The notes beneath the pieces were generated by a model. It did no database searches. It was not told the origin of the DNA and saw nothing but the letters and a program-made list of their open reading frames with translations. DNA of 64,000 nucleotides from a virus, in the IMG/VR virus record IMGVR_UViG_3300044695_003432, positions 1-64,000 of that record; one strand, 5' to 3'. A program made the translations under genes and the position numbers. Position 1 is the first letter of the stretch; every line of letters starts with the position of its first letter. Below are positions 11,020 through 64,000 of the stretch, one piece after another.

Positions 11020-11066
11020 ATGCTTTCGTAAAGCATAGGTCCAGGGTTCAAATCCCTGAGGTGGCT
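11020..11066 (+). other. Phage attachment site: 3' half of tRNA-Thr(CGT)
   Basis: The sequence folds as an anticodon arm (ATGCT-TTCGTAA-AGCAT, anticodon CGT, U33 present), a 5-nt variable loop, a T arm (CAGGG-TTCAAAT-CCCTG) and the 3' acceptor strand AGGTGGC. No matching D arm or 5' half precedes it. A 3'-half tRNA directly beside an integrase gene is the usual attachment core. The integrase stop codon lies inside it (11048-11050). Confidence 0.75.
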
Positions 11067-47332: not shown

Positions 47333-47339
47333 CTTTGAC

Positions 47340-47404
47340 CCTTTCAAAGGTTTCCTAGCGACATGCTAGGGAATCGATCCGGTAGCCTTTCAGCTACGGG
47401 ATCG
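47340..47404 (-). repeat. Structured leader element 5
   Basis: H1 CGATCCCGTAGC/GCTACCGGATCG (47375-47404, 11 of 12 pairs), H2 CCTAGC-ATGTC-GCTAGG (47354-47370), palindrome CCTTTGAAAGG (47340-47350). The H2 stem sequence is wholly different from element 4 yet fully paired. Confidence 0.88.
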
Positions 47405-47410
47405 GGTGAA

Positions 47411-47611
47411 TCATTCGTAATCGTGCCAGTCTCGGACTTCCCCACGCGTCTGAAGTCTCCAGTTCATATCGGGCTCGGCATCGCGGTATGCCTGCAAAGT
47501 TTTCAGTAGATACGGAAGTCTATGGGGCAGATCGGACTCGTGGACTGTCCAGCGAGAATCGACGGTGAACCAACCAGGGCCGGACGACACTAAACGGAAG
47601 TTATTCGGCAT
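47411..47611 (-). CDS. Small hypothetical protein
   Basis: 66 residues from ATG 47611 (MPNNFRLVSSGPGWFTVDSR...). Short beta sheet plus helix (PHRLPYLLKTLQAYRDAEPD). Unknown. Confidence 0.6.
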   Translation of the reverse strand: MPNNFRLVSSGPGWFTVDSRWTVHESDLPHRLPYLLKTLQAYRDAEPDMNWRLQTRGEVRDWHDYE

Positions 47612-47618
47612 TGTGTTC

Positions 47619-47681
47619 CCTTTCAAAGGTCCGGCGGTATTGCCGGAGAATCGATCCAGCATCCTTTCGGATGCCGGATCG
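47619..47681 (-). repeat. Structured leader element 6
   Basis: H1 is 13 bp (one G-T pair) closed by a GAAA tetraloop (47652-47681), H2 TCCGGC-AATACC-GCCGGA (47630-47647), palindrome CCTTTGAAAGG (47619-47629). Confidence 0.9.
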
Positions 47682-47687
47682 GATGGA

Positions 47688-47945
47688 TCATTCGTCGTCC
47701 TCTTCAAGCAGATACACAATCCCACAATGTTTGCATGTCGGCAGGGGATGCCCGATCGGAGGCACGATCCTAGGGGCGGGTTCATGTCGGCAGTTGTCGA
47801 TATCGTACAGTTGATCCTTCAGCTCTTGGGCATTGTTCTCGATCTCTTCGATCTCTTCCTGAGAGAATCGATATCTCAGGGATGCCCGATCCGAGAGGAT
47901 GGATTCGATCTCTTCGATGCGTTCGGCGAGCTGTTCGCGTGTCAT
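47688..47945 (-). CDS. First gene of the hairpin-led series, coiled-coil zinc protein
   Basis: 85 residues from ATG 47945. N-terminal acidic coiled coil (REQLAERIEEIESILSDRAS, QEEIEEIENNAQELKDQL), then a Cys/His group (NCRHEP ... TCKHCGIVYL) that could bind zinc. First gene after the candidate promoter at 48.07-48.10 kb. Confidence 0.65.
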   Translation of the reverse strand: MTREQLAERIEEIESILSDRASLRYRFSQEEIEEIENNAQELKDQLYDIDNCRHEPAPRIVPPIGHPLPTCKHCGIVYLLEEDDE

Positions 47946-47952
47946 GTGTTTC

Positions 47953-48003
47953 CCTTTCAAAGGAATGAGTGAAAACCCCGCACGCGGTTTCCCGCATGCA
48001 GGG
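47953..48003 (-). promoter_or_regulatory. Leader element 7 with terminator-like hairpin (possible attenuator)
   Basis: A 12-bp stem with two G-T pairs and a GAAA loop (47976-48003) is followed by TTTT, then by the palindrome CCTTTGAAAGG (47953-47963) and the ATG at 47945. A hairpin plus T run between promoter and first gene could pause or end early transcription. Confidence 0.65.
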
Positions 48004-48062
48004 CGTTTAGGTTTCGGTTTCACTTGTCAGAGAAGGGGATTCGGGCCGTTGCCCGTCTCCGA

Positions 48063-48098
48063 TGAGTGAAGTATCGGCTATACGAGAAGGAAAGACAA
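48063..48098 (-). promoter_or_regulatory. Candidate promoter of the small-gene cluster
   Basis: TTGTCT (48093-48098) and GATACT (48070-48075), 17 bases apart on the minus strand; 4 of 6 matches each. The leader then has a CGGGC-AACG-GCCCG hairpin (48042-48055) and element 7. Confidence 0.45.
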
Positions 48099-48204
48099 TC
48101 GGCTTGTTTGCGGATTCGGAAAGATTGTGTCTAAGGGGCTGAAAAACAGGGGCTTGCGTTTAGATGGTTTTCTGGTAGGATCGGGAGAGATTGGAGCGAT
48201 ACCG

Positions 48205-48339
48205 ATGGAATGGATGATTGAATGGGTGTTTGGGTATGGGCCGATTGTGTTTGCTGGGGTCGTGGTCGGCTGGTGGCTGAGAGACAGGGAAGAGAGACGA
48301 AAAGCCCCAGTCACGAAAACTGGGGCAAGGGTTGAATGA
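48205..48339 (+). CDS. Possible small membrane protein, opposite strand
   Basis: 44 residues from ATG 48205 (GGAG upstream): EWMIEWVFGYGPIVFAGVVV, GWWLRDREERRKAP. One membrane helix with a charged C-terminus. It is divergent from the small-gene cluster. Its 3' end overlaps the minus-strand terminator, so support is moderate. Confidence 0.4.
   Translation: MEWMIEWVFGYGPIVFAGVVVGWWLRDREERRKAPVTKTGARVE
48301..48327 (-). terminator. Terminator after the phage B late genes
   Basis: GCCCCAGT-TTTCGTG-ACTGGGGC stem followed by TTTT on the minus strand. It separates the terminase-end genes of phage B from the small-gene cluster. Confidence 0.75.
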
Positions 48340-48605
48340 TCGTTCAAGGAACAGAGGCACGATGCTCGATCGCTCCAGCGGATTGAAAGTCTGCAACGGG
48401 TGGCGTGATTCGCTGCACTATCGGCAGGGCTTGTGTCCGCACACGTGCCGATGCTCGCGGATGCGGTCGCTCGGGCGGGCTCGGGCAGGCTCGCGGCCCC
48501 ACCCCCACGGGGGGAATCCGCCTGGCCCGCTAAACGATACCCTCTGAAAAGTTTCTGCTAGAAAAGCGGACCTAGGGATTTCTCCCCAGATCGCCTATAA
48601 CGCCA
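48340..48605. other. Non-coding stretch
   Basis: No convincing gene. GC-rich, with short repeats of GGCTCGGGCAGG type near 48476-48492 and no tRNA fold that I could complete. It may hold the phage B packaging or terminal site, in analogy to 15.6-16.6 kb of phage A. Confidence 0.4.
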
Positions 48606-48842
48606 TTAGACCGCATTAGAGCCATTCCTAGACCGGGTGGACCCTTGGGTATCCCCAACCCCTAGAACGCCTCCTGAGCCATCTAATGCCCTCCCAGACC
48701 CATCCACACACGAGTTCATCTCCCCAACGGTTCCTATCCTTCTCAGAGCCTCTCTCGCAACCGTTTGAACCCCCTCGCATCCCATCCTAGCCACCCTCTG
48801 GAGGGCATCCTCGGCTATGAGCAGGCGGGATCGGTCATCCAT
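48606..48842 (-). CDS. Hypothetical protein
   Basis: 78 residues from ATG 48842, behind GGAGG and coupled to the upstream stop. Helical first half (DDRSRLLIAEDALQRVARMG, REALRRIGTV), Gly/Ser-rich second half. Unknown. Confidence 0.5.
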   Translation of the reverse strand: MDDRSRLLIAEDALQRVARMGCEGVQTVAREALRRIGTVGEMNSCVDGSGRALDGSGGVLGVGDTQGSTRSRNGSNAV

Positions 48843-49102
48843 CACTTCCTCCCTCTGCGTCTCGTCTGCGTCTTTCCTGCGTCCACCTCTGCGTCCACCT
48901 CTGCGTCCACCTCTGCGTCCACCTCTGCGTCCCCCTTCACAACCCCGTCCACCCCTCCCTCTCCATCTCCTCCTCCATCTCCGCCAACATCTCGTCCAGG
49001 TTCATCACCTCCACCCTTCACCTCCTCCCCCTTGGGGGGTTCAGCCTGAGCGACGTACATCTGCTTGATCGAGTCCCAATAGTTGATTAGCGAGTGATCC
49101 AT
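48842..49102 (-). CDS. Acidic protein with DAEV tandem repeats
   Basis: 86 residues from ATG 49102, overlapping the end of terminase. After MDHSLINYWDSIKQMYVAQA comes a Gly/Asp-rich stretch, then four to five DAEV units encoded by a 12-bp tandem repeat (about 48888-48935), and a basic end (KTQTRRRGRK). The repeat number could vary by slippage. Function unknown. Confidence 0.6.
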   Translation of the reverse strand: MDHSLINYWDSIKQMYVAQAEPPKGEEVKGGGDEPGRDVGGDGGGDGEGGVDGVVKGDAEVDAEVDAEVDAEVDAGKTQTRRRGRK

Positions 49103-50778
49103 GAGTGGTGCTTTCTGGGCTCCTTGGCCCCTACCTGAAACTTGAGGAACTTGTCCATCTCCATCTTCCACACCCGATCCTTTGCTCGGGCGTTCTCCTC
49201 CTCGGTCTTCTGACTCATCACCTCGGTCCAGGATTGAACCGCGATGGCGACGGCTTCAAGCCGGTCATCGTGAGCCAGACACCCTGCCATCTTGCGGATG
49301 TGGGTGAGCTGGTAGAAGAGCTGGTAGGTCTTAGCGACCTCTGAGGGGTAGCTGGCGGTGGACTTGTAATCCCGCTCGATGAGAGCGGCGTTGACGATCA
49401 TCTTGTGAGACTCGATGATCGGACCAAGGGTGTCGATCATGCGGGCCTCTTTGTTGCCCTTGGACCAGGGAGCATCCTCTACGGAGCAGAGTTGATTCCC
49501 TCTGACTGCCGCTTGGAGCATCTTGGTGAACATGCCTCCGCCGTAGTTAGGCTCGCAGAAGATCCGGTTCACCTTGTACCGCTTGGCGATGGAGGCAAGG
49601 CGGGTGAGGGTGGTGTCTGAGAAACCCTCAAGGAACCCCCCAGCATCGAGGAGGAACATCTGCCCATGCAGATACCCCACAACCCCGTATGCGGTCTCGT
49701 CCTTACCCCGGCCTGACGGATCTACTCCCATGTGAATCCCCACGAAGGGGAGCCTGAGAGCGTCCTTGAGAGCCACACCGCGGTACGGCCTGTCTCCCCT
49801 GAACCCCACCAGATTGACGTTCTTGATCTCCTGGTCTGGGTCGTTGTTCCAGGCCACCCGTTCCGGGATGTCCCCGGTGTCGAAGTCGTAGAAGCAGAGG
49901 TCTCTGTACCGGAAGGGGTACATCTCTGCATCCTGCATCTTCGGGTTCAGCATGAACTGAAGACCGAAGGTGGCACGGCCAATCGAGGACTCGATCTCCT
50001 GGAGCTTGGTCTCGGGGAAGCGGGTGGGCTCTGTAGGCTTGCCCTCTAGGGTGGGGTCTTTCTCCAAGTCCTTGAGCAGGTCTTCAGAGATGTCCCCATC
50101 CACCGCTTCGATGTCAGCCTTGCTGGGATACCGAGCGGTCCAGACGGTCTTCTTGTACCCTCGCTTCTCCAGCTCGGCGTACAGGGTCTCCTCGGTCTGG
50201 GGAGTACCGAGGTAGCAGATCCTCCCCGTCTCCGGCTTGGCGATCATCTCGAACTCTTTGACCTTCTCTGCGATCTTCTCTCGCATGAGGACGGTCTCTG
50301 AGTTCTCCGGGGTCTCGATGTCGTCGGGGATGATGAGATCGGCACGGAAGCCGGTAATCATGCCCGTGATCGGACGGGAGTACACAGAGGGGAACTGGCC
50401 TGACTTCACACAACCGACATCGAAGGCAATGGCGGAGTCTCGCTGACCGGGGTTCGGTCGGAGAGGCTCCAGCACATCCATCCCCTGAATCAACATCCGG
50501 GAAAACTTGGAGAACTCATCCGCTCGGCGGGCACCGCCTGAGCAGACGAGGATGTTCCACGAAGGGTTCCAGTACAGGAACCAAGGCACCGCACAGCCGG
50601 TGATGATCGACTTACCAATCCCGCGGGGGGCCTCGATGATCTGACGCTCGGGACCGTGTTGGATCTTGTGAGCGATCGAGTACTGGAGGGGGGTGGGGGA
50701 AGGGAGACCGAGATGCTTGAAGGCGAGGTAGAGGAAGTTCCGAAAGTCCCGCAGGGCGGGGTCGGGGGTGTAGTTCAT
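49087..50778 (-). CDS. Terminase large subunit (phage B)
   Basis: 563 residues, closer to T7 gp19 than the phage A protein. Walker A APRGIGKS near 50-57, DLIIPDDIETPEN as Walker B, nuclease motif GVDPSGRGKDETAYGVV near 345, and a late AHDDRLEAVAIAV. Packaging motor and nuclease. Confidence 0.95.
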   Translation of the reverse strand: MNYTPDPALRDFRNFLYLAFKHLGLPSPTPLQYSIAHKIQHGPERQIIEAPRGIGKSIITGCAVPWFLYWNPSWNILVCSGGARRADEFSKFSRMLIQGMDVLEPLRPNPGQRDSAIAFDVGCVKSGQFPSVYSRPITGMITGFRADLIIPDDIETPENSETVLMREKIAEKVKEFEMIAKPETGRICYLGTPQTEETLYAELEKRGYKKTVWTARYPSKADIEAVDGDISEDLLKDLEKDPTLEGKPTEPTRFPETKLQEIESSIGRATFGLQFMLNPKMQDAEMYPFRYRDLCFYDFDTGDIPERVAWNNDPDQEIKNVNLVGFRGDRPYRGVALKDALRLPFVGIHMGVDPSGRGKDETAYGVVGYLHGQMFLLDAGGFLEGFSDTTLTRLASIAKRYKVNRIFCEPNYGGGMFTKMLQAAVRGNQLCSVEDAPWSKGNKEARMIDTLGPIIESHKMIVNAALIERDYKSTASYPSEVAKTYQLFYQLTHIRKMAGCLAHDDRLEAVAIAVQSWTEVMSQKTEEENARAKDRVWKMEMDKFLKFQVGAKEPRKHHSWITR

Positions 50779-51728
50779 GGTTTCTTCAGAAGCAGACCGT
50801 CTCCGTAGCCTTCGGATTCACCCGCACGGATGCAGTTGAAGGACCCGGTGGCTTTGGCTTTGGCGTCTCGGAGTTTCCTCCACCAGGCCCAGGTGAAGTT
50901 GAATGGGGTGTTCAGGGTGAATCCGGGGACACCGTTGGCGACTCTCTCAGAGAGATACCCGAAGTCCCACGCCACCACTCGCTCACCCGTCTCCGCTGCG
51001 GCATCGACCATGAAGGACCACTGACGGTCATCCACAAGCCGATACTTCCAGTTGTCGTTGGTTGGGTGGTACTGAGGGCTGAGCAGGATGTACCGCTTGG
51101 CGTTGGGGTTCAACCGGCGGGACTCGTTCACCGGCCCGAGCATCCTGGTCTTCCATTGCTCGTTGGTGTGGGAGTCTGAGTAGTGGTTGTAGAACGGGTA
51201 GCACTGGATGTAGTGCGAGTCGAGGTACTGCCCCAGCCGTGCGTAGGTGTAGTCGTTCGCGGTGCGGTACTGGATCATCTCGGCCCCGCTGGCCTGGATC
51301 GGGAGCCAGTAGGGGTTGTAGAAGCAGTCGTACATCCCCAGCTCACACGATGTCGGAGCGTTGGCTCGGAACACGTCGATGAGGGTCTTGATGTACGCAC
51401 AGTCCTCGTCGATGTTGGCGTTCGAGGCGTTCTGCCCGTAGCCGTTGACGGAGGTGGGCATGGAGGACTGCTGGACGATGCGGACATTCCCGCCTCGGTT
51501 GATCTCCTCTACGTCAAGGCAGACCTTGGTGCCGGGGGGAATGGCTCGGCAGTAGGAGGCCCAGTGAGCAGCGTCATAGACACCCGTGCTGTAGTCTCCG
51601 TCCGGGGAGTTGACGGACGGCTGATACCACTGGCGGATCAGCACCACCACCGGATCGACTCCCTGCCTTACACAGTCGGGGAAGGTGGGCCGACCATCGG
51701 CGTAGCCGAAGATGTTGCAGTAGATCAT
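50775..51728 (-). CDS. TIM-barrel hydrolase-like late protein (phage B)
   Basis: 317 residues. Strands VDPVVVLIRQWYQP, TKVCLDVEEINRGG, CYPFYNHYSDS, YILLSPQYHP and RVVAWDFGYL suggest a TIM barrel like glycoside hydrolases; LDVEE offers a candidate catalytic acid. Counterpart of 19237-20043 in phage A. Endolysin or surface glycosidase is a guess from position. Confidence 0.5.
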   Translation of the reverse strand: MIYCNIFGYADGRPTFPDCVRQGVDPVVVLIRQWYQPSVNSPDGDYSTGVYDAAHWASYCRAIPPGTKVCLDVEEINRGGNVRIVQQSSMPTSVNGYGQNASNANIDEDCAYIKTLIDVFRANAPTSCELGMYDCFYNPYWLPIQASGAEMIQYRTANDYTYARLGQYLDSHYIQCYPFYNHYSDSHTNEQWKTRMLGPVNESRRLNPNAKRYILLSPQYHPTNDNWKYRLVDDRQWSFMVDAAAETGERVVAWDFGYLSERVANGVPGFTLNTPFNFTWAWWRKLRDAKAKATGSFNCIRAGESEGYGDGLLLKKP

Positions 51729-51937
51729 GCGGTCTTCTGATTCTCTTGGAAGGGGAGGTTCTCGGCGAGCTTCAGGATGGGGGAGTTCTTCTGACCGGCT
51801 TGGATGCCGTGGTCATGCAGGAGCTTCCGCATCCGCTCTTTGTCCTGCGGGGATGCCTCACCGCTCTCCAGGAGCTTGAGGTCTGACTCGATCAGAGTGG
51901 TCATCATCTGAGCGAGCATGTCTTTATCACTGGGCAT
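51725..51937 (-). CDS. Terminase small subunit (phage B)
   Basis: 70 residues from ATG 51937, matching the gp18-type pattern (TLIESDLKLLESGEASPQDK, ERMRKLLHDHGI). Overlaps holin and TIM-barrel genes. Confidence 0.7.
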   Translation of the reverse strand: MPSDKDMLAQMMTTLIESDLKLLESGEASPQDKERMRKLLHDHGIQAGQKNSPILKLAENLPFQENQKTA

Positions 51938-52205
51938 GGCCTGCACTCACAAGGGAGAGGATCTTGAGGATCGTCGCTGAGTTGAGGATGAAGGTGAGGA
52001 CGGCGAGACCCCCGAGGCCCATGTAGAGGTGCTTCTTCAGGTGGTCGATCTCGCCCCTCTGCTCTCGGGCTTGGGTCTGGATTGAATCAAGGAGTTTGCC
52101 ATTCATGGTTTCGCGTTCCTCGGCACGCTCGATGAACTGGTCGAGCTTGCCGGTCAGGAGTCCGATCTTTTCGCAAAGCTCGGCCACTACGGATTGGTCG
52201 GGCAT
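51927..52205 (-). CDS. Putative holin, XhlA-like (phage B)
   Basis: 92 residues from ATG 52205. Coiled-coil N-terminal two thirds (CEKIGLLTGKLDQFIERAEE, EQRGEIDHLKKHLY) and one C-terminal membrane helix (GGLAVLTFILNSATILKILS). Architecture of hemolysin XhlA-type holins. Confidence 0.7.
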   Translation of the reverse strand: MPDQSVVAELCEKIGLLTGKLDQFIERAEERETMNGKLLDSIQTQAREQRGEIDHLKKHLYMGLGGLAVLTFILNSATILKILSLVSAGHAQ

Positions 52206-52230
52206 GGGGGTTTCCAATGGGGTGAAGAGA

Positions 52231-52253
52231 CACCCCCGCGGTTAGGCGGGGGT
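52231..52253 (-). terminator. Strong hairpin after the gp16-position gene
   Basis: CACCCCCGC-CTAACC-GCGGGGGTG followed by a pyrimidine-rich but T-poor tail. May be a weak terminator or a processing stem. Confidence 0.5.
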
Positions 52254-52260
52254 GGCTTGA

Positions 52261-55200
52261 TTAGCGACCAGAGTTCTTGAGCAGCTTGTTCACCTCTTCG
52301 GAGGAGGTGAGCCCGCTCTCAAGCAGGGCGTCGATGTTGAGACCGCTGGAGGCAGCTTTCAGCTTGGCGGCATCGGGCATCACGGATTGGCCCGTTGTCG
52401 TTCTGAAGTGCTCCTCGGTCATGGCGAGGGCGGTGAGCTTGTACTTCTCGTAGATGGATCGGAGAGCCTGCACCCGGTAGTTGTACGAGTCGCCTCCCTT
52501 GTAGGGGAGAGCGGTGCTCTTGTACTGCGGGGTGTTGATGAGCTTCTCAAGAGCCTCATCCACGAGGGCCTTGGACCCATCCGGCATGGGGAGCTGGACT
52601 CTGCCAAGAGTCTCTCGCCAGTAGTCGAGATAGGTCTGACCGCTCTTGTCACGGTAACTGCGGAGGTTGATACCAGGGCCGTACATCTCCTCGGGGGGAG
52701 TGAGCACGGTTCCGGTGGCAACGAGTTCCTTCATCACGGGGGTCTGAGAGATGGGTCCGCTTTGGAACGGAGAGACCACATCGGCAACACGGTTATGGCC
52801 GGTGATGAGGTTCCACGGAGCCGCTCCCCGCATCCCGGTCGTCACTCGACCGAAGATGTCTCGGGCGGGGTCGGAGAACTCAGACCAACCAGGGACACGG
52901 TTGCGGATGGCACCGAGCATCCCATCGGTCTCTCGCTTCTGACCATCGAACGCAACCGCCACGTCACGGACGATGCCGGGAACGATGGAGCCTGCGTAGG
53001 AGTTCAGAGCCTTCTCCACTTGGCCGGGGGAACCCTCCAGAAGGGAGAAGAGATTGGAGAGGCCGGTGAGGAAGGTGTCGTTACTGAGCTGGCTTTGGAA
53101 GACCAGCAGCATCTTCTCGGCGATGGTCCCCCGTTCGTTCTCGTCCGTCGCCACATCGAGGGTCTCCATCATGTCTGCGATAGCCATGAGGGGACGGCTG
53201 ATGGGGGAGTAACGGTTGAGCGGGTAGACCCTTCCGTTGATGATGAGGGAGTTGGGAACCCAGCCGGTGTCCATGAGAGCCTTGCGGGTCTGAGGCTCCG
53301 TGGGACCGGAGCCAGTCAGGTTGCCCGAGGCGTACAGAGACACCGCGGGCAGAGCAAGCATCGTGGACATCACGAGCTCCCCCTTCGCATGTGCCCGCGT
53401 GAGCGGATCAGGCGAAGAGAGGCGTGCTCGGAACTGCTTACCGGCCTCAGAGGGCCGGAGGTAGTTGAAGCCCAGAGTCATGTTGGCACCGTCCGTCAAG
53501 AGGTTCGACGGGGTGCGGAGGAAGGGGACGAAGAGACGGAGGACAGGAGCCTTCTCTCGGGTCTTCTCAAGCGATCGAGCGAGGCTCCCGTTGAGAAGGT
53601 CGGAGGTCCACGTTGCCGCAGCGGCTTCGTCTACGCCGCCTTGGAACAGGAAGGTCTTTCCATCGGCGGTCTTCGAGGCCGTCCCGTCGATGCCGTAGGC
53701 AACCTTGAGGTAATACTTCTGGAACTCCTCTGCCTTGTCCCCGGAGATTCCGAGGAGGCGGGCATCGGCGTTGGCCTGCGTCTTCACCCAAGCCTGGTAC
53801 GAGACGTTCTTGAACCACTCGTCAGAGGTGTTGAGTACAATACTCGGGCCTCGGGCCAACTTGCCAAGGATGCCGGGGAGAACCGGCTCATGCTCTCCAA
53901 GGGAGTGCTGAGAGAGAATCGGCCTCTCTTTCTTCCAAGCCCGCGTGGCGTTCTGAACCGCTCGACTGTTGAGCTTGAGGGACTCGAAGGAAGTTTCAAG
54001 AAGGTTTCGGAAGTGGTTGGAGACGAGTTTTAACTGCTGAGGATCACCCTCGTTGATCGCCCCAAGGGCTTCCTTGAGGGGGCGAAGGACGAGCATGTTG
54101 AGCCCGGTACTGAGCGGGTTGTGGTTGATGGTCTTGACACTGGAGAGCAGACCGTTCTGCCACACTTCAAGAGCTGCCTTGCCCACCTTGCCCGCGATGC
54201 CCCAGAAGTTCTCAACTGCTTGGGCGGCTTCGGACGGGCCGAGGCCTGCACGGAAGACCGCTTCGGCGTACTTCGCCTGGGCTTTGAGGACTTCAGGGCT
54301 GGCCTTGACCACATCGAGATGGGCCTTGGCCTCGGCGAGGATCTCCTCGAGCTGGCGGAGCTGGGTTGCTTGGGCGGTGGTGGGGGTTCCTTTGACTTCA
54401 GCGAGGAGTGCGGCCTTGGCGGATTCAGCGGACTCGACCATATCCATTGCCCGTTGGAGAACGGGGTGGAAGGTAGTGCCCGCTTCTTGAGCAGCCTTGG
54501 CGACCTTCTCCGCAGCCGGGTCGGCTTGACCTGCGGCTTTGGTGGAGGTGATGCGATCCCGCTCGACGCCGAGGCGACGGAAGACCTCATCGAGGGCTTC
54601 TGACTCCTTGGTGAGGTGTTCGACATCGTTGATCTGGAGGGCTCGACCGACAACTCGGTTCAGAGCCTTCCGCTCAACGGTGGCGTCGATCATCCCGTTC
54701 AGGAACTCCGCACTCATCTTCATGTCGCCCTTACCTGCCATGCGGGTTGCAAGGAGGCCGTTGGCGACGACTTTGGCGTTGGCACGAGCGACCAGGGCAG
54801 GGAGCTTCTCGCCGACGCTTGCCCAGTTGTCCTGAAGGAACTTGAGCTGGGTGGGGTCGTCGATGAGTTCCACCACGTCCTTCCACGTCTGGTCGTTGGA
54901 CTGGTTGATGCCAGCGACGACGGAGGCGGCTTGGTTGGTGGTGGAGTCGATCGCCTTGTGGAGCTCGTCGATCGAGGGGGTGCCTCCGAGGGTTCGGAGG
55001 TTGGTGTGTTCAAGGGTGGCGAGGGCGATTGCGTCCGAGGGGATGGCACCTTCGGACATGAGGGCTTGGACGGTGGAGACGGCGGGGGGAGGAGTGGGGG
55101 CTGAGGCGGCGGGGGGAGGAGTGGGGGCTGGGGCGGCGGACTGACCAAGTTCCGCTGGCCCACGACGAGCTTGGCCACTGACCAAGCTCGACTGAGCGTT

Positions 55201-57168
55201 ACGGATAACAGCATCCTCGTTCAATACGATGGTTCCAATAGTGCCATCTAGGTTGAAAGAGAGCACGTCGTATCCGGCTGTTTTCGCCTTTACGACCGCA
55301 TCGTTTACCGCGTCCACGAGGGTTTCGCCCTCATTCAGCGACGAGCCGATGTAATCATTCGGGGGCCGCTCCCGACCAAGAAGCGTCCAGAACCCATCGT
55401 CGCCTTCTCGCAGAATCTTGGCTTCAGGCTTAGCGACAATCGTTTCAATGCTCGGGCCGTAACTTCTGGCGGATTCCGCCGAGCGGGCCATGAACGTCAT
55501 GCCTTTTGCGGCATTGAACGGCTCCGCGATCCGCTCGGTTCGGGACGGGTTGGTTCCTCGATAGAACACCCGAGATGGGTCTGCGGCGGCGGGGGGCCGC
55601 TCGATCATTACAATGTGCTTGACAGGCCCGTTGGGCGTGTCGTGCATGTAAGCAACGGAGTCGAATCCCATCGACTCCATCCAGTCGGCCATTGCGGAAC
55701 CGCTGAGCTTCTCCGGGGGGATTGCCTCCGCCTCGCCTTTGGGGCGTTTAGACTTCCAGACATCGTGAGTGCCCGCTTCGTTTCGGAGAACCCGCCACAC
55801 AGGCATCGGCGGATCTACGTCCCCGCCGGATACAGACATCGGCCCCCTGAGAGGCCCGTCGAGAACAGCCGAAACTTCCTTGGGCAGATCATTCCGCCTC
55901 CAGTTAGGAGGTAGCGGGGGAAATCCCATAGCGTTGTTGATGGCCTCGGTGAACTCCACAAACGTCTGCTTCGGCCCGGATTTGGTCAGATCGAGCGTCT
56001 TCTTTGGGGCAATCTCAAACTCCGCCACGGTTCCGTCTGCACGGGGCTTGTGGCCGTGGAGGATCTCGAAAGACTCCGCACCCTTACCGGGGTTCCGCTT
56101 GTCGTACCTCGCCACGGTTCGGGAGTCGGTGGATGCGTACCTTGCCGCATCCTCGGGGTCCGTGGTGTAGAACTTGAACGGGGCCGTAGGCGGGGTGTCC
56201 TGGCCGGGGCGGATTATGTTGTCGATGGACTGAACGCCGGAGAGATGCTTGCCGCCTTCGAGCGGGGCCATGTCTCCGCGGTAGACTTTGACAGCGGCGA
56301 TTGGGGCCGCATTCGCCGCATCCCCCACAACGCCATTAGACGGCACTACAGCCGTTCCAGCATTGGATGCACTCTCGGATGCACCTGAAGGTACGGACGC
56401 ATCCTGGGGCATCGTAGAGGCTTTGGGAGCCTGTAGGGCCTGGGCCTCTGCCGCCAGCTTGTCTTTCTGGGCTTGGATCTTCGCCAGCAGGGCCGCAGAC
56501 TCCTCGGCGGAGGCGGCTTTCTGGAGGCCCTTGGTCAGTTTGACAAGGGTTTCGATGGTGCCGAGGGCACCGTCCATAACCACGCCTTCGAGGGAGGCTT
56601 TGAGCTTCCGCTTGAGGATGGAATCATCCGCGTTCGTGGACAGGGCACGGGTGAAGTAGTTGTTCGCCGGGCCACCGAGGCGGACCAGGAGGTTTGAGAG
56701 GTTCTCGTTCTCTTGGTTGGCGAGGGCAAAGGAGGTGGCGGCACCCTGACCGGCCATCGTGGAGAGCTGCCGGAGGGCACCAGCACCACGGGAGGGAGTG
56801 AACCCAGCACCCAGCAGGCCGTAGCCAGCGGTGAACTCCAGAATCCCCTCGGCCACGGGACCGGCGGGGGTGGAGTATTGCAGGGCCGAGGGCATGGAAG
56901 CCTCTCGGTCCTCGGCTGAGACGGTGGAGAGGGTGCCGGGGCCGAAGGCAGCGTTCGCTACCGCGGCGACGTTGTTGGTGATGAGGTCGTCCTTGAGTGC
57001 TCCAACAGCACGGGGGACAGCCTTGGCGACATCTGCCGCCATCTTGAGGTTGTTGACGTAACCCTCTGCGGCTCCCTGAACGAAGCCTTTGCCCATTTCG
57101 GCGGCGTAGTCCAGGATGCCGGGGTCAGAGGGGACGGGCTTTGAGGAGGGGGTTTCGGGGTTGCTCAT
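52261..57168 (-). CDS. Large internal virion protein with two ADP-ribosyltransferase-like domains (phage B)
   Basis: 1635 residues at the T7 gp16 position. The N-terminus is helical with Gly/Ala hydrophobic parts. Residues about 294-525 look like an ART-PolyVal domain: VYRGDM (Arg297), FKFYTTDPEDAARYAS (331-346), GFDSVAYMHD and HIVMIERP. Residues 534-655 repeat the plan: FYRGTN (Arg537), TFMARSAESARSYG, GYDVLSFNLDG and TIVLNEDAV. A Pro/Ala linker follows (about 680-700), then long helices and a polyvalent-protein-type C-terminal region (LFVPFLRTPSNLLTDGAN). As an ejected protein it could modify host targets at infection. Confidence 0.75.
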   Translation of the reverse strand: MSNPETPSSKPVPSDPGILDYAAEMGKGFVQGAAEGYVNNLKMAADVAKAVPRAVGALKDDLITNNVAAVANAAFGPGTLSTVSAEDREASMPSALQYSTPAGPVAEGILEFTAGYGLLGAGFTPSRGAGALRQLSTMAGQGAATSFALANQENENLSNLLVRLGGPANNYFTRALSTNADDSILKRKLKASLEGVVMDGALGTIETLVKLTKGLQKAASAEESAALLAKIQAQKDKLAAEAQALQAPKASTMPQDASVPSGASESASNAGTAVVPSNGVVGDAANAAPIAAVKVYRGDMAPLEGGKHLSGVQSIDNIIRPGQDTPPTAPFKFYTTDPEDAARYASTDSRTVARYDKRNPGKGAESFEILHGHKPRADGTVAEFEIAPKKTLDLTKSGPKQTFVEFTEAINNAMGFPPLPPNWRRNDLPKEVSAVLDGPLRGPMSVSGGDVDPPMPVWRVLRNEAGTHDVWKSKRPKGEAEAIPPEKLSGSAMADWMESMGFDSVAYMHDTPNGPVKHIVMIERPPAAADPSRVFYRGTNPSRTERIAEPFNAAKGMTFMARSAESARSYGPSIETIVAKPEAKILREGDDGFWTLLGRERPPNDYIGSSLNEGETLVDAVNDAVVKAKTAGYDVLSFNLDGTIGTIVLNEDAVIRNAQSSLVSGQARRGPAELGQSAAPAPTPPPAASAPTPPPAVSTVQALMSEGAIPSDAIALATLEHTNLRTLGGTPSIDELHKAIDSTTNQAASVVAGINQSNDQTWKDVVELIDDPTQLKFLQDNWASVGEKLPALVARANAKVVANGLLATRMAGKGDMKMSAEFLNGMIDATVERKALNRVVGRALQINDVEHLTKESEALDEVFRRLGVERDRITSTKAAGQADPAAEKVAKAAQEAGTTFHPVLQRAMDMVESAESAKAALLAEVKGTPTTAQATQLRQLEEILAEAKAHLDVVKASPEVLKAQAKYAEAVFRAGLGPSEAAQAVENFWGIAGKVGKAALEVWQNGLLSSVKTINHNPLSTGLNMLVLRPLKEALGAINEGDPQQLKLVSNHFRNLLETSFESLKLNSRAVQNATRAWKKERPILSQHSLGEHEPVLPGILGKLARGPSIVLNTSDEWFKNVSYQAWVKTQANADARLLGISGDKAEEFQKYYLKVAYGIDGTASKTADGKTFLFQGGVDEAAAATWTSDLLNGSLARSLEKTREKAPVLRLFVPFLRTPSNLLTDGANMTLGFNYLRPSEAGKQFRARLSSPDPLTRAHAKGELVMSTMLALPAVSLYASGNLTGSGPTEPQTRKALMDTGWVPNSLIINGRVYPLNRYSPISRPLMAIADMMETLDVATDENERGTIAEKMLLVFQSQLSNDTFLTGLSNLFSLLEGSPGQVEKALNSYAGSIVPGIVRDVAVAFDGQKRETDGMLGAIRNRVPGWSEFSDPARDIFGRVTTGMRGAAPWNLITGHNRVADVVSPFQSGPISQTPVMKELVATGTVLTPPEEMYGPGINLRSYRDKSGQTYLDYWRETLGRVQLPMPDGSKALVDEALEKLINTPQYKSTALPYKGGDSYNYRVQALRSIYEKYKLTALAMTEEHFRTTTGQSVMPDAAKLKAASSGLNIDALLESGLTSSEEVNKLLKNSGR

Positions 57169-58922
57169 TGATCGGATTTCTTAGCGGGAGCGAGGGAGGG
57201 CGAGTCCGAGGAGGACGAGCCGGAGCGGGTGGCGTTGAAGGGGATCTCGGACTGAATCTGCTTGACGAACTCGGTGAGCTTGGACATGGCATCCTCGGGG
57301 AGGATCTTCTTGCCCCCGCGGGAGTTCATCTTGTAGGAGAACCACTTCTCAGACAGAGCGGCCTTGGCACGGACGATGCGGGCTCCGGTCTCACTGGAGG
57401 CGGAGGGCATACCAGGCATCGGGAAGGCGAAGGCGGCTGCTGCCGGATCGTTCTCGATGTATGCGGCGACGAGCTGCTGCTCGGCGACTCGGTACGCATC
57501 TTCGATCGTGGGGAACTTCTCGGCCTGCTCGGCACGGTCGATCCACTTCGAGGCCTCGTGCTCGGTGATGGCACCGTTCTTGGCGAGGTAGAAAACATAC
57601 TCAGTGCTGAGGGGATCACGAGGATCGAGTTCCTCAGACATGATGTTCGAGCGGATCAGGGCGTTCGGGGCAGAGCCGATCTCACGATCGAGCTCGTTGA
57701 CGCGATCCGTGAGTTCCTTCGCTGCCCCCATCTGGCGGAAGGCATCGAAGAAGCGGGCACGGGCTCCGGGGAGATCTCCGGTTTCCTTGACGTAGCCTTC
57801 GAGTTCGCCTCGAAGGTACTTGAGGGCCTCGGAGGAGGCTTGGCTATCGGCGGTGTGGATGTTCGAGGACAGCTTGTATCGCTCATTGAAGTAGCTCTCG
57901 AAGGCCCCCGGAGGGACGTTCTGGAGCATCTCCGGGGGGAGACGATGCGAGAGGGGATTCTCCCCCGCGGCGGTGTGGGCGTAGAGCGAGTCGCTAGCGG
58001 ACTTGCCCCAAGTGTCTGCGGCTTGCTTGACCGCTTCGGACTGCTGCTTCATCTCTTGGAGGATGAGCGAGTTGACGCGGGTGGCGGTGTTGTAGCGGAC
58101 TTCCTGAGCGGCGGCGGTGTTGCCGAGGGGAGCTCCGTCCTTGCCCTTGAGTTGAGAGAGGATGCGGGGGGCGAGGTTGGCGTCCTTGGCTTGGAGGGAG
58201 GCCTCTTCGATGGACTCGTAGAGGATCTTGTTGGCGATCGTGGGGTGCATGGTCCGAAGCATCTCGTCGAGATGGGTCTGGACCTCGGCCACGCCATCGG
58301 CTGAGTCGAACTTCGAGCCAGCGGTAAAGATGGAGGTGAGGTAGTCTCGGGCCTTCTCTTGGCGTTCCACCTGACGCTCTTGGGAGCGTTGGTTGGACCA
58401 CTGGTTCAGAACCCGAGACTTCATCGAGTCGAGTTCGGGGACCGCAGCCTCGGCAGCGAATGGCGAGAGGTTCTGAGCGAAGCCGGAGAAGTGCTCATCC
58501 CAAAGAGAAGCCACCGCGTCGGGGTTGTCTTGGAACCGAGCGGGGTCTTCTTCGAGCTTCTTATCGAACCCGAGAGCGAGCTTGCGGGCCTCGGCCTTCG
58601 CCACCTCCTGCTCGGCCTGAGCCATCGACCAGGGGTTATCCGCCCAAGGGATCTCTCCAGCATCGACCGCCTTCTTGAAGGAGGCCATGTTGTCGAGACG
58701 CTTGGTGAGGACATCCTTGGTGGCTCGGAGTTCCGAGGCACGGCGGTAGGCGGAGAACTGGCGATCGAGGACGCCTTGGAGGCGGGGATTGAACTCGCGG
58801 AGAGACGCGGCAAGCTGAAGGGCCGGGTTGGCGGGGGCAGGGGCGGCGACATCGGCCTGCCGGAACTGATCCACAGGGCGGGCCTGCGGGTCAAGGGGGA
58901 CGTACGAGTTCATCGAGGACAT
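57165..58922 (-). CDS. Internal virion protein, gp15-like (phage B)
   Basis: 585 residues, helical, Gln/Ala-rich with many charged heptads (KEEDPARF-type and ERQVERQEKARDYLTSIF). Starts at ATG 58922 one base before the gp14-like gene ends; overlaps the next gene by four bases. Corresponds to 24664-26817. Confidence 0.78.
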   Translation of the reverse strand: MSSMNSYVPLDPQARPVDQFRQADVAAPAPANPALQLAASLREFNPRLQGVLDRQFSAYRRASELRATKDVLTKRLDNMASFKKAVDAGEIPWADNPWSMAQAEQEVAKAEARKLALGFDKKLEEDPARFQDNPDAVASLWDEHFSGFAQNLSPFAAEAAVPELDSMKSRVLNQWSNQRSQERQVERQEKARDYLTSIFTAGSKFDSADGVAEVQTHLDEMLRTMHPTIANKILYESIEEASLQAKDANLAPRILSQLKGKDGAPLGNTAAAQEVRYNTATRVNSLILQEMKQQSEAVKQAADTWGKSASDSLYAHTAAGENPLSHRLPPEMLQNVPPGAFESYFNERYKLSSNIHTADSQASSEALKYLRGELEGYVKETGDLPGARARFFDAFRQMGAAKELTDRVNELDREIGSAPNALIRSNIMSEELDPRDPLSTEYVFYLAKNGAITEHEASKWIDRAEQAEKFPTIEDAYRVAEQQLVAAYIENDPAAAAFAFPMPGMPSASSETGARIVRAKAALSEKWFSYKMNSRGGKKILPEDAMSKLTEFVKQIQSEIPFNATRSGSSSSDSPSLAPAKKSDQ

Positions 58923-59531
58923 TTATGCCTTTCCGAACAGCGGGCGATAGAGCCAATCGTTCGAGGTCTTATTCGGGTCGTAGGGACCGGAGCGGGTCTG
59001 CTGCATCCCGGTGTCGTAAGCGTCGATCGCAGAGCCGCCAATGCCGAAGAGAAGGCTGAGCGGATTGCCGCCTTCAACGGGACGGGGGCGAGCGGAGACG
59101 ATGCGGTTGGCGGCATCGGTGCGGAAGCCTTCAGCATCGCGGGCATCCTGAGCACGCCGCCAGTTGTAGTTGAGGAGGAGGTTGTTCTCGGTGGCCGCGG
59201 CTTGGCGGTCGAACTCGCCGAGAAGGTTGTTCATGGTCTGAGACGAGAGACCGCGGGAGCCGAGGGCGGTGGCAGCGGCGGAGCGATCTTGGATGCTCCG
59301 GCGGGCACGCTCGGTGCCTTCATCGAGAAGGGCCTCACGCTCTTGGAGAGCACGCTCACCCTGAGCTTCGAGCTGAAGGTTGTAGTTGCTCTTGGCGTTC
59401 TTGGTGATCTCGCTGTAGACCTGGTTCTGGTATTCGTTCTCAGACTCGGCCCGCTGGTTCTCACCGACGTACTGAGCGGTGGACTGGCCGATGCCCAGAG
59501 CTAGAGGGATTGCTGCGGCGACGGTGCACAT
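58923..59531 (-). CDS. Internal virion protein, gp14-like (phage B)
   Basis: 202 residues. The start MCTVAAAIPLALGIGQ is close to that of T7 gp14. Then helical Gln/Arg-rich repeats (QLEAQGERALQEREALLDEG). Forms the outer-membrane part of the ejection apparatus. Confidence 0.85.
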   Translation of the reverse strand: MCTVAAAIPLALGIGQSTAQYVGENQRAESENEYQNQVYSEITKNAKSNYNLQLEAQGERALQEREALLDEGTERARRSIQDRSAAATALGSRGLSSQTMNNLLGEFDRQAAATENNLLLNYNWRRAQDARDAEGFRTDAANRIVSARPRPVEGGNPLSLLFGIGGSAIDAYDTGMQQTRSGPYDPNKTSNDWLYRPLFGKA

Positions 59532-59971
59532 GAGGAGTAGAACTCTCTGAAGATGACACCCTTGATGTGACGCTCACCGCTGAAGGTGAAGCCCATGTGG
59601 GTGAGCCATCGGACGTGGACGGTGTTGCGGGAATCGACAAGATTCCAGAGGTGGGGGAAATCGAGATGGAAAATGGTTTTCCAGAGCTTTGCGGTTCGCA
59701 TAAACCAGCGGACATTGAGGGCCATGCGATCGGTGCCCATGAGCCACGGGACACCCACGAGTTTGTTCTCGGGGTGGGGGCCGCATCCGAAGACACCGAC
59801 AATCCCCTCGGCATCCACACCGACCTTGCAGGTCGAGGAGAGGCGAAGGGAGTAGAGAAGTGCCTCCTCCGGGCTTTCACCGAAGGAGGCGAGGATTTCA
59901 CGATGGTCCGCGGCACGGAGGTTGGGGGCGAGGTCGAGAAGATCACGCTCCGTTGCATCACGGATTTCCAA
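59501..59971 (-). CDS. GNAT-like internal virion protein, gp13-like
   Basis: 156 residues from TTG 59971 behind AAGGAAAA. MEIRDATERDLLDLAPNLRA and VGVFGCGPHPENKLVGVPWL, then WNLVDSRNTVHVRWLTHMGF, follow the acetyltransferase-fold plan of T7 gp13-type proteins. Placed between nozzle and gp14 genes as in T7. Phage A has no such gene. Confidence 0.78.
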   Translation of the reverse strand: MEIRDATERDLLDLAPNLRAADHREILASFGESPEEALLYSLRLSSTCKVGVDAEGIVGVFGCGPHPENKLVGVPWLMGTDRMALNVRWFMRTAKLWKTIFHLDFPHLWNLVDSRNTVHVRWLTHMGFTFSGERHIKGVIFREFYSSCAPSPQQSL

Positions 59972-62900
59972 TCAGGTTTTCCTTGAGTCAGGGGACCAGT
60001 TCCCTTCCCATGAGGCCTTGGAGAACCAGGCCGGGAACATGGAGTCATTGAGAAGGGTGGCGGTGGTCTCCTCGTTGCGGCCTCCCACCCAAGCGATGAA
60101 CTCGCCGGAGGTGAGAGAGACGGTTGAGGGGGCCGATCCGTTCCCGTTGGGGAGCTGGTCCGTGAGGGCGTAGGTGGCCGTGGGGCGACCGCCTGAAGGA
60201 GTCACGAGGAACGAGAACCCAACCGCATCGGAGTAGTTGATGCGGAGGCGGTGGATCTGGAGCCGACCGTTGGTATCAGCGAGCGAGCCTCCGCCGGGGA
60301 GGGGATCACGGACGTAGAACGGGGAGAAGACAGAGGACTGTGTGTAGGACAGGCCCACCCACACAGCCTTGCTCTCCCAGTTGCCCGTGAGGCGAAGCTC
60401 GGTGGCGGAGCCTCCGACTTGCTGAGCGATGATCGAGCCGACCGTTCCGAAGGTGGGCTGAGGGGTTGCCACGATCGTTCCCACCGAGGGCTTATCCCAA
60501 GGCAGGGTGACGGTGGTGTAGTTGCCACCAGCGTTGTAGGTTCCACCCGCGGGGGTGACTGAGACGCGACGATCAAGGAGGACCGGGTACGCGAGGGTTC
60601 CATCGGTGTAGCCGATGTCGAGGTTGAAGACCTCAAGCTCGGTGCCGGTGACTCGCCGGATCACCATGTAGAGCTTCGAGTCAATGCACCCGAGGCCGTA
60701 GATCGTGTCATCGTTGGTTCCGTTCCCTGAAGGGGCGGGAGACCAGCGATGCCAACCGGCAAGGACAGTGCGATCACCCTCGGTGGCCCACTGGTGGACC
60801 CAGATCTTCTTCCGATCCCCAGAGCACAGCACGGCGAGGAACTTCTCAGGGACCACACAGCAGAGCTGGATGGGGTTGCCGGAGAGGTAGGTAGCGACGT
60901 GCTCAGTGCGGGGGTTGGAGGAGGCGATCTCGTTGTATGGGTCGATCACGAACTCTCGGATCTGAGTGAACGATCCGCTGCGGTAAGGGGCGAAGAGCCG
61001 CCTCTCCGCGTTGACCGGGCGGCAGTTGGCGTAGGTATCGTGTTCCGACTCGATCTCAAAGCGAGCCGTCTTGGCGGTATAGGAACCGTTGACGGTGAGG
61101 CGGAGCTGAGAGCGATCCCCGAAGACCATCGCACGGTTGGCGAAAGGAGAGCCAGCGTGGAGGGTGAGGACGGAGTTCGTGCCAGCCTCGAAGTCGATCG
61201 GGTCGGAGTCTTGGACGGTGAGAGCAGTTCCCCTCCAGAAGTCGTAGAAGTTACCTGCCACACTCGCTGAGGCGTTGGAGCCGGAGACGAAGTGGAGGCG
61301 ATTCTCGAAGAGGAAGAGATCCTGGATCTTCTGGCCCACGAAGGCGGGGGCCGGAGCGGTGATCTCATCGCCTGCCCCACGGGAAGCCCAGGCTCCCTTG
61401 GAGATCTGGAAGTAGATCTGGTTCGGAATACCCGTGACGGTGCCGGAGACGTTATCCACCTTGCGGGTGATGACGTGAGGCATCGAGGCGAGATCGAAGG
61501 AATCGGTGATGCAGGGCTTATCGACTTCGACCCAGAGACCTCGGCCCACCACGAAGTCCGTGGCGGGGGTGGGGGTGATCTCGAAGCGGACGTAGTAATC
61601 GTCCTGACCCGAGGAGGCACTTCCCTTCACGGTCATTACATCGCCATGCTCCGCGGTGTCGGGGAGATCGGCGAAGGAGTTGACTTGGTTGTAGGCGAGG
61701 CGGGTATAGGAGTTGCCTACGGAGTCGGTGATCTCTGCGGTGAGTGCGGCGTTATCGAAGCGAGCGATGCGGAAGACACTATCGCCGGGGCGGTAGTCAA
61801 CACCGTAGGTGCCGAGGTTGAGCTGTTGAGCGATGAGCGAGGCGAGCTGAGAGACGATGTAGCTCGTCTGGATCTTCGTGGCATCGTCCGTGGGGGTGAC
61901 GTACTCGACGGCCTTACCATCGACCTGAACGCGGTAGCGAACTCCGTAGCCGCCTTGGCGAATCCAGAAGAGAGCGACGTTCCGCTTACAGAAGAGAACA
62001 TCCGGGATGCCCGAGGCGGTGAGATCGACGGAGACACTCGCACGGGAGTTTGTGCGGTAGACCGTTCGGCCATCGACCAGGGCCTCTTGGCGGAAAGTGT
62101 CCGTTGCCCATGAGAGCTGGTACTTGGAGCAAGTGTTGACGTAGCCGGTGATGACACTCGGCTTCGCGGTGATCGGGGAGCCTTCGAGGACGGACCCACC
62201 GGGCCACCCACCGGAGTAGTAGGTAACGAAGTCGAGGGTCTGGTCAATGAACAGACGCTCATGGGCCGCGGCGACCGAGAGCATCGACTTGGTGTTATGG
62301 CCGGTGAGGTGGTAGCGGTGGGTTGTGGTGTTGGAGCCGTCGATCGTGTTGGAGCCGACCTTGACGCCGATGATCTTCATGCCGGGGGCGATGAGGAGCT
62401 TGGCGGAGGTGTAGGACCAGTTACTCGGGGGAGAGGTGTTGCTGAGATCGTTGGGATCTCGCACATCACCCTGGCCCGCGGCGGGCAGGGTACAGGTGCG
62501 GCGGTAGGTGCCAGTGACTTCCCATCGGCTGTTGCCTGCATCCCAAGTGGTTGAGCCGGTGATGATGAACTCAACGAGATCGGTGCCGAGGTACGGGGCG
62601 TCGTTGACGTTCTCTTGGAGGAAGCGGACGTTACCGGAGAAGGCCACGTTCGCTCGAACACAGTTGTAGCAGGTGGCCGAGCGTTGCTCGGGGATGTTGC
62701 CTGCGTACCAGTTCCAGAAGTTGAGGGTGACGCTCTCGGTTCCACACGAGGGGGTTGTGGAGGAGGAGACAGAGGCGAGGGCGGGAGTGACACTCCGGTT
62801 CACGAGGAGCGTGGTGTCCGCAAGCGTGAGAGCACGGAGATCGTGGCGAGGGGTAGAGCAGGCGAGGTACGCGGCGGTTCCCGAGTCGTAGATGACGGGG

Positions 62901-63208
62901 AAGGATGTGCCAGCGAGGTTGAACGCCTTGAGTTCACCCGAGCGGAACAGGAAGAGGTACTGCTCCGAGGCATCCCTTCGGATGAAGTGGACCATCGGAT
63001 CGTTCGTGGCGTTCGCGTCCCCGGTGGTCTGGGAGGAGGTGAGGAGGCGAGCGATGTACTGAGACGATGGACGCTTACCCAATCCCTTGAGCGGGGAGAG
63101 GAAGGAGTTCTCCTGCGATGCAAACTGAGACGGGGCACGGAGCGGAGCGGTCTGCTGAGAGACGCCGCCGATGAGATTGGGGATAAGCCCCGAGACAGGT
63201 ACAGGCAT
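59972..63208 (-). CDS. Tail tubular protein B (nozzle, phage B)
   Basis: 1078 residues, longer than T7 gp12 (794). N-terminus LIPNLIGGVSQQTAPLRAPS is diagnostic. Beta-rich throughout, with KIQDLFLFENRLHFVSGSNA and a C-terminal RLQIHRLRINYSDAVGFSF. In phage A the corresponding protein is encoded by two genes. Confidence 0.92.
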   Translation of the reverse strand: MPVPVSGLIPNLIGGVSQQTAPLRAPSQFASQENSFLSPLKGLGKRPSSQYIARLLTSSQTTGDANATNDPMVHFIRRDASEQYLFLFRSGELKAFNLAGTSFPVIYDSGTAAYLACSTPRHDLRALTLADTTLLVNRSVTPALASVSSSTTPSCGTESVTLNFWNWYAGNIPEQRSATCYNCVRANVAFSGNVRFLQENVNDAPYLGTDLVEFIITGSTTWDAGNSRWEVTGTYRRTCTLPAAGQGDVRDPNDLSNTSPPSNWSYTSAKLLIAPGMKIIGVKVGSNTIDGSNTTTHRYHLTGHNTKSMLSVAAAHERLFIDQTLDFVTYYSGGWPGGSVLEGSPITAKPSVITGYVNTCSKYQLSWATDTFRQEALVDGRTVYRTNSRASVSVDLTASGIPDVLFCKRNVALFWIRQGGYGVRYRVQVDGKAVEYVTPTDDATKIQTSYIVSQLASLIAQQLNLGTYGVDYRPGDSVFRIARFDNAALTAEITDSVGNSYTRLAYNQVNSFADLPDTAEHGDVMTVKGSASSGQDDYYVRFEITPTPATDFVVGRGLWVEVDKPCITDSFDLASMPHVITRKVDNVSGTVTGIPNQIYFQISKGAWASRGAGDEITAPAPAFVGQKIQDLFLFENRLHFVSGSNASASVAGNFYDFWRGTALTVQDSDPIDFEAGTNSVLTLHAGSPFANRAMVFGDRSQLRLTVNGSYTAKTARFEIESEHDTYANCRPVNAERRLFAPYRSGSFTQIREFVIDPYNEIASSNPRTEHVATYLSGNPIQLCCVVPEKFLAVLCSGDRKKIWVHQWATEGDRTVLAGWHRWSPAPSGNGTNDDTIYGLGCIDSKLYMVIRRVTGTELEVFNLDIGYTDGTLAYPVLLDRRVSVTPAGGTYNAGGNYTTVTLPWDKPSVGTIVATPQPTFGTVGSIIAQQVGGSATELRLTGNWESKAVWVGLSYTQSSVFSPFYVRDPLPGGGSLADTNGRLQIHRLRINYSDAVGFSFLVTPSGGRPTATYALTDQLPNGNGSAPSTVSLTSGEFIAWVGGRNEETTATLLNDSMFPAWFSKASWEGNWSPDSRKT

Positions 63209-63801
63209 TAGGCGTATCCATAGCGGAGGTCTCTGAGGACATCCGGGTTCTTGAAGATGTTGGCGTCACGGACTCGCGTATCGTCGCGGAGCATCTCGGC
63301 CCACGATCTCTGCTCCTGCTCTCCGATGGTTTGCTGGAGTTCACGGGAGCCGAAGATGCGGTCTTGGAAGATGCGGGAGGCTCGGTGGGTGATGTATGCC
63401 TTGGCGTTCTCAGGGAGATCGTCGAAGTCCAGGGCGAAGACGATCCGCTCTGCGGTGTAGTCTTGAGTGAGGACATCGGTTCCGGTTACGGTGTCGTAGA
63501 GGAAGCCGTTGCGGATCACGAGGAGAACGGTGGGGTACTTGAAGGTGGAGATCTCAACCCGCATGGCCCCGGTGGGGACGGCGATCTTGTTGGAGCCGTT
63601 GCGGGTGAGGGCGACTTCGGTGCGGGTGTTGAAGGCCCACCCGCGGGTCTGGACTTCCCGGCTGACTTGCCGGAGGATGTTCAGAGCCTTCCCCATGTCC
63701 GAGGAATCGCTGAGGCCGGAGATGGACGCGATGGGGGCTTCGTTGATGTCCCGAAGCATGATGTTTACGGCTTCGAGTTCAGTGGTCGCGGAGAGGGGCA
63801 T
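63208..63801 (-). CDS. Tail tubular protein A (phage B)
   Basis: 197 residues, gp11-like: ATTELEAVNIMLRDINEAPI, LRQVSREVQTRGWAFNTRTE, and AYITHRASRIFQDRIFGSRE. Gatekeeper between portal and nozzle. Compact, without the Gly/Thr insertion of phage A. Confidence 0.92.
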   Translation of the reverse strand: MPLSATTELEAVNIMLRDINEAPIASISGLSDSSDMGKALNILRQVSREVQTRGWAFNTRTEVALTRNGSNKIAVPTGAMRVEISTFKYPTVLLVIRNGFLYDTVTGTDVLTQDYTAERIVFALDFDDLPENAKAYITHRASRIFQDRIFGSRELQQTIGEQEQRSWAEMLRDDTRVRDANIFKNPDVLRDLRYGYA

Positions 63802-63815
63802 GGGGGTTCCTTATG

Positions 63816-63851
63816 GAAAAACACCCTCCAGACTTTTCAATCTGGAGGGTG
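63816..63851 (-). terminator. Terminator after the phage B capsid gene
   Basis: 11-bp stem CACCCTCCAGA/TCTGGAGGGTG (63822-63851) followed by TTTTT on the minus strand. A second hairpin, ACTGTTGA/TCAACAGT, lies at about 63863-63883. T7 also has its terminator just after the capsid gene. Confidence 0.9.
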
Positions 63852-63888
63852 CTATGACGGTCACTGTTGACCGAATCAACAGTCAGGA

Positions 63889-64000
63889 TTAGCTGAGCTC
63901 GGACTCGCCGGTGGCGATTTCGATAGCAGCCTCGGGGCGGAGGACACCGTGTCCAGCAACGTACTTGCCGACAACGATGGACGCCTGACGGGCCACCGAG
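63889..64000 (-). CDS. Major capsid protein, C-terminal end only (phage B)
   Basis: The frame enters from the right window edge and ends at 63889: SVARQASIVVGKYVAGHGVL then RPEAAIEIATGESELS. GHGVLRPEAAIEI matches the usual gp10-like capsid end and parallels GAGQLHPWCAGVIEV in phage A. The rest lies outside the window. Confidence 0.8.
   Translation of the reverse strand, partial: SVARQASIVVGKYVAGHGVLRPEAAIEIATGESELS

Follow-up and report, generated by a model that had tools for sequence, protein, structure and literature searches.

What is the long segment that lies inside the gp16-position core protein of a T7-like phage, and could it give the phage an enzyme that is delivered together with its DNA? 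The protein is encoded in a window of 64,000 nucleotides, positions 1 to 64,000 of the IMG/VR record IMGVR_UViG_3300044695_003432, which runs to 85132 and carries two T7-like genomes in one orientation, here called phage A (window positions 1-44100) and phage B (window positions 47000-64000). Each genome has a terminase, a T7-type RNA polymerase and an integrase (phrog_1; window 11048-12142 and L003:8294-9337), and the integrases suggest that both T7-like phages are temperate. The left end of the record, 1-211, recurs at 43820-44030 with 127 and 79 bp of exact match, which makes phage A look terminally redundant and raises the possibility that its junction with phage B is an artefact of assembly. 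Phage B also encodes a DNA methyltransferase-like protein (L002:7591-8292; phrog_67, E = 8e-57), whose gene lies between those for the DNA polymerase and the connector.

The protein of interest, from phage B, has 1635 residues and is encoded on the minus strand at 52261..57168. Against PHROG it matches phrog_6651, 'internal virion protein' (E = 3.6e-41), and the homology to this T7 gp16-like family lies in a conserved C-terminal region, residues 990-1614 (52327..54201, minus strand), supported by the phrog_6651 match together with alignments. A tblastn search with the core protein returned matches in 63 phage records, with hits to 'internal virion protein D' of marine podoviruses of Pelagibacter, Roseobacter and cyanobacteria, at ~22-30% identity and mostly over residues ~990-1610, while a scan for close relatives of this C-terminal part found none. 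A second, N-terminal block (residues ~92-215; 56524..56895, minus strand) is conserved in an alignment with 10 relatives. The gene order of phage B, with tail tube, nozzle, gp14, gp15 and gp16, is that of T7: the gp14-like internal virion protein (58923..59531, minus strand) matches Pfam T7_gp14 (E = 3.2e-22), and the 585-residue protein at the gp15 position (57165..58922, minus strand), for which Pfam and PHROG gave no match with E below 0.001, sits between gp14 and gp16. Because the phrog_6651 and tblastn homology is joined by the T7 gene order, we assign the 1635-residue protein as the gp16-position core protein, as an earlier note on this DNA had proposed. It shares with T7 gp16 the gene order, the C-terminal homology to the internal virion protein D families and, as we infer for phage B, a role in ejection. 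Unlike T7 gp16, it carries an insertion and shows no N-terminal lytic transglycosylase domain in Pfam and PHROG scans, a domain likewise undetected in those of its relatives that were scanned. The nozzle (tail tubular B) protein of phage B (59972-63208) is 1078 residues long, whereas the Pfam model has 794 positions, and because its relatives cover it in two pieces, it may have an insertion of its own of roughly 200-280 residues.

Residues ~216-720 of the core protein have no counterpart in an alignment with 10 GenBank relatives, and the distance from the N-terminal to the C-terminal block is 809 residues, compared with a median of 352 among 36 non-redundant homologues. As read from the translation, the insertion starts, where the relatives have nothing, with a helical stretch followed by an Ala/Ser/Pro-rich linker (residues 216-289; 56302..56523, minus strand; the linker itself spans residues 247-290) and is closed by an Ala/Pro-rich linker (residues 673-700; 55069..55152, minus strand). 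The earlier note had deduced an insertion or a loss from a phage A homologue said to lack the region. That comparison fails: between the core protein of phage A (20327-24877, phrog_342) and that of phage B no similarity could be detected, and the two cannot be aligned; the insertion is instead borne out by the GenBank relatives and the 36 homologues. Searches for homologues of the insert, by tblastn against phages and plasmids and in scans of IMG/VR and GTDB genomes, found none. Since two phages are joined in the 85-kb record, and since the exact repeat of 127 and 79 bp ties its left end to position 43820, the insert might be taken for a product of chimeric assembly that is no part of a real gene. 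We consider a chimeric join inside the core-protein gene highly improbable: the gene is a single unbroken frame of 4908 bases, the insert is close to the remaining gene in codon-position GC and in codon use, and the repeat lies ~8 kb or more away. Outside this gene, the 85-kb record may be chimeric.

Within the insertion lie two successive segments, each showing the plan of the ART-PolyVal family of ADP-ribosyltransferases (ARTs). Domain 1 (residues ~292-527; 55588..56295, minus strand) has VKVYRG at residues 293-298, FKFYTTDPEDAARYA at 331-345 and GFDSV at 501-505. Domain 2 (residues ~532-662; 55183..55575, minus strand) has RVFYRGT at residues 533-539, MTFMARSAESARSYG at 557-571 and GYDVL at 632-636. 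Both motif sets fall consecutively in one open frame; all of the strings that the earlier note had quoted were recovered there, and the ART-like block, 55183-56295, departs from the limits it had given (55204-56289) by no more than ~21 bases. A three-element ART motif pattern matches the core protein exactly twice, at these two segments, and matches none of 2000 shuffles of the protein; in other phage ORFs, 514,000 residues in all, only true ART gene fragments match. This result is not blind, because the pattern was composed with both segments known. Domains 1 and 2 have no detectable similarity to each other. The 380-residue insert of phage B looks like two highly diverged tandem ADP-ribosyltransferase domains.

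No model recognises either ART-like segment in searches of Pfam, PHROG, NCBIfam and PDB sequences, and the curated PF18760 (ART-PolyVal) model gives no match above its gathering score to either domain or to the whole core protein. We compared the segments with an ART-PolyVal profile composed of 29 domains from PF18760 hits in 388 bacterial genomes and 8 ART-like domains from gp16-like proteins, none of them picked for likeness to the phage B segments. Domain 1 scored 6.8 bits (E = 6e-4 for one test), which none of the 848 scored shuffles reached, and domain 2 scored 10.2 bits (E = 6e-5; 0/996 shuffles). A variant of the profile gave 7.7 and 9.7 bits, respectively, and across profile versions 0-1 of ~1000 shuffles reached the domain scores, while slices of real control proteins did so at a rate of ~1% for domain 1 and 0.1-0.3% for domain 2. 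Both profile scores are above chance, and each is weak alone. A profile built from gp16 ARTs only did not detect domain 2. When aligned with MAFFT, domain 1 is 19-28% identical to the ART-like domains of L015, L021, L204, L209 and L177, with the motifs in register, and the pairwise score of domain 2 with the ART of L047 exceeds all 500 shuffles. The single sequence of domain 1 compared with the bacterial profile by hhalign gave a probability of 2.5%, with the aligned GFD strand in register. AlphaFold models were unusable, both for residues 285-680 from single sequence (mean pLDDT 34) and for domain 1 when fed with an alignment (mean pLDDT about 39). Foldseek searches with these two low-pLDDT models returned noise and not one significant PDB match, and are uninformative because the models are too poor.

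The best support for an ART reading is context, namely the enzymes that occupy the same position in gp16-like proteins gathered by two IMG/VR scans. Between the same two conserved blocks, more recognisable ART-like domains are found in L047, L042, L068, the L015 group, and L204, L209, L177 and L185. The ART of L047 matches PF18760 over the cut-off (43.2 bits), that of L204 matches DUF3990 (E = 0.0012), and in the L015 group the PF18760, DUF3990 and Exotoxin-A models fall on one spot (E = 0.005-0.007); DUF3990 (PF13151) we take to be a member of the ART superfamily. At this same site, L065 has a methyltransferase (Pfam, E = 9.5e-7), and several gp16-like proteins have HExxH zincin motifs. Proteins of up to 2018 residues with the methyltransferase (L065:1963-8016) or HExxH zincin-like motifs are those of L065, L053, L050, L190, L076 and L068. 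The ART-like domains of the IMG/VR proteins (L015, L042, L047, L068, L204 and their kin) share the carrier, the insertion site and the motif plan with phage B. They keep YHG or FHG and mostly an Asp in strand 5, in which the phage B domains differ, and they occur singly, in some cases next to a zincin motif, whereas phage B has two; the sequence relation between the two sets is not close.

Some other alpha/beta region, or a low-complexity adapter, could resemble ART motifs by chance, and such an insert would accord with the absence of library and structural matches and with control proteins that sometimes equal the score of domain 1. We regard this as unlikely in view of the two motif sets that follow one another in the expected order, the register that domain 1 keeps along its length with the ART-like domains of gp16 proteins, and the occurrence at this site, in other lineages, of independent ART-like domains. 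An ART fold is the reading that we prefer for both segments: domain 1 probably has it, and for domain 2 we expect the same with somewhat less assurance.

The candidate active-site residues are R297, Y334 and E523 in domain 1 and R537, F559 and E651/D652 in domain 2. At the NAD-binding position in strand 1, Arg (R297, R537) replaces the family His in both domains, which leaves both without the His by which Tox-ART-HYD2 is recognised. L117 also has YRG in place of YHG, yet is a genuine PF18760 member, at 37.2 bits against a cut-off of 31.2. In strand 2, domain 1 has Y334 and domain 2 has F559 at the Tyr position, where the ART of L047 also has Phe. In strand 5, a Glu stands at or adjoining the Asp position (E523 in domain 1; E651, with D652 adjacent, in domain 2), in a register that is ambiguous by one residue, and Glu occurs at the strand-5 acid position of L209 as well. 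The earlier note had held that loss of the NAD-binding Arg and the catalytic Glu/Gln would speak against ARTs; the Arg is present in both domains, and a Glu lies at or next to the catalytic acid position within that one-residue ambiguity.

Polyvalent ARTs have been described as H-Y-D (PMC5512222). The phage B domains share with ART-PolyVal (PF18760)/Tox-ART-HYD2 the motif order, a virion-associated carrier, tandem copies and a predicted co-delivery with DNA (PMC5512222). They differ in falling below the family cut-off, in having Arg for His and in having a Glu that falls on the Asp position or close to it, and their carrier is a T7-like gp16 homologue instead of an N4-like RNAP or a MuF protein. 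To judge from the residues, both domains look like diverged relatives of ART-PolyVal, though not members by the curated cut-off. The replacements of His by Arg, of Asp by Glu and, in domain 2, of Tyr by Phe, together with the strong divergence and the low profile scores, would also suit pseudo-ARTs, which are of ART descent but have lost some or all of their catalysis and act as binding or structural modules, or a pair of which only one is active. This seems to us improbable, since both domains retain the strand-1 Arg as well as an acidic residue in or close to the strand-5 position, and the YRG protein L117 exceeds the PF18760 cut-off. Within the preferred reading of diverged ARTs, catalysis by at least one domain, through its R-Y-E or R-F-E residues, is conceivable at slightly less than even chances, and one domain may have no activity.

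T4 Alt, to which the earlier note had likened these domains, is an ART that is packaged in the head and injected with the DNA. It belongs to the Alt/VIP2 (R-S-E) clade and, like the phage B domains, has an Arg in strand 1. However, Alt is a stand-alone protein of another ART clade by motif, whereas the phage B domains are embedded in a core protein. On inspection, the STS and ExE/QxE motifs are absent at the aligned strands of residues 290-662, and with no Pfam ART match either, an Alt/VIP2 reading was rejected. Because the STS and ExE motifs are absent, Alt serves as an analogy for delivery and not as a relative. What endures of the earlier ART interpretation is the pair of segments with an ART-PolyVal-like plan, while kinship with T4 Alt and the phage A comparison are given up.

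From these residues, we read the phage B site as a variable effector site that holds two divergent ART-like domains of R-[YF]-E type. The explanation that we favour for the whole, with moderate confidence, combines this variable site and its two tandem, diverged ART-like domains with ejection of the carrier and an early, NAD+-dependent modification of the host. The effector site would lie between the conserved N- and C-terminal blocks, with Ala/Pro-rich linkers flanking the two domains. In T7, gp14-gp16 are housed in the internal core and are ejected when the phage infects, and by analogy the phage B core protein is probably packaged in the same manner and ejected with the DNA. Carried as cargo of the ejected protein, one or both ART-like domains would then reach the cytoplasm and, with NAD+ taken from the host, would modify one of its macromolecules at an early stage of infection; candidate targets include RNA polymerase, translation factors and defence proteins. 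Because NAD+ is cytoplasmic, the side of the inner membrane that the domains reach matters for this mechanism.

The theme of polyvalent virion proteins that contain one ART or several has been documented, and the prototype polyvalent ART resides in the RNAP protein of an N4-like podovirus (Iyer et al., 2017; PMC5512222). The phage B protein is a known polyvalent-protein strategy in a new setting, that of a T7-like gp16 carrier, and a limited search of the literature found no report of the ART theme in T7-like gp16. A wider proposal, which we offer as speculative and rather doubtful, is that the inner core protein of T7-like phages has, flanked by its two conserved blocks, a general, exchangeable cargo slot by which different lineages would bring ARTs, methyltransferases or metalloproteases into the host, with phage B filling it with two R-Y/F-E ARTs intermediate between H-Y-D and R-S-E. 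This cargo-slot idea could be tested with one purified protein. The usual view is that T7-like phages introduce hardly anything except DNA and the channel proteins. If gp16-like proteins do have a swappable enzyme slot, the host would be modified before any phage gene expression, as by T4 Alt, and delivery would be the work of the ejection machine itself.
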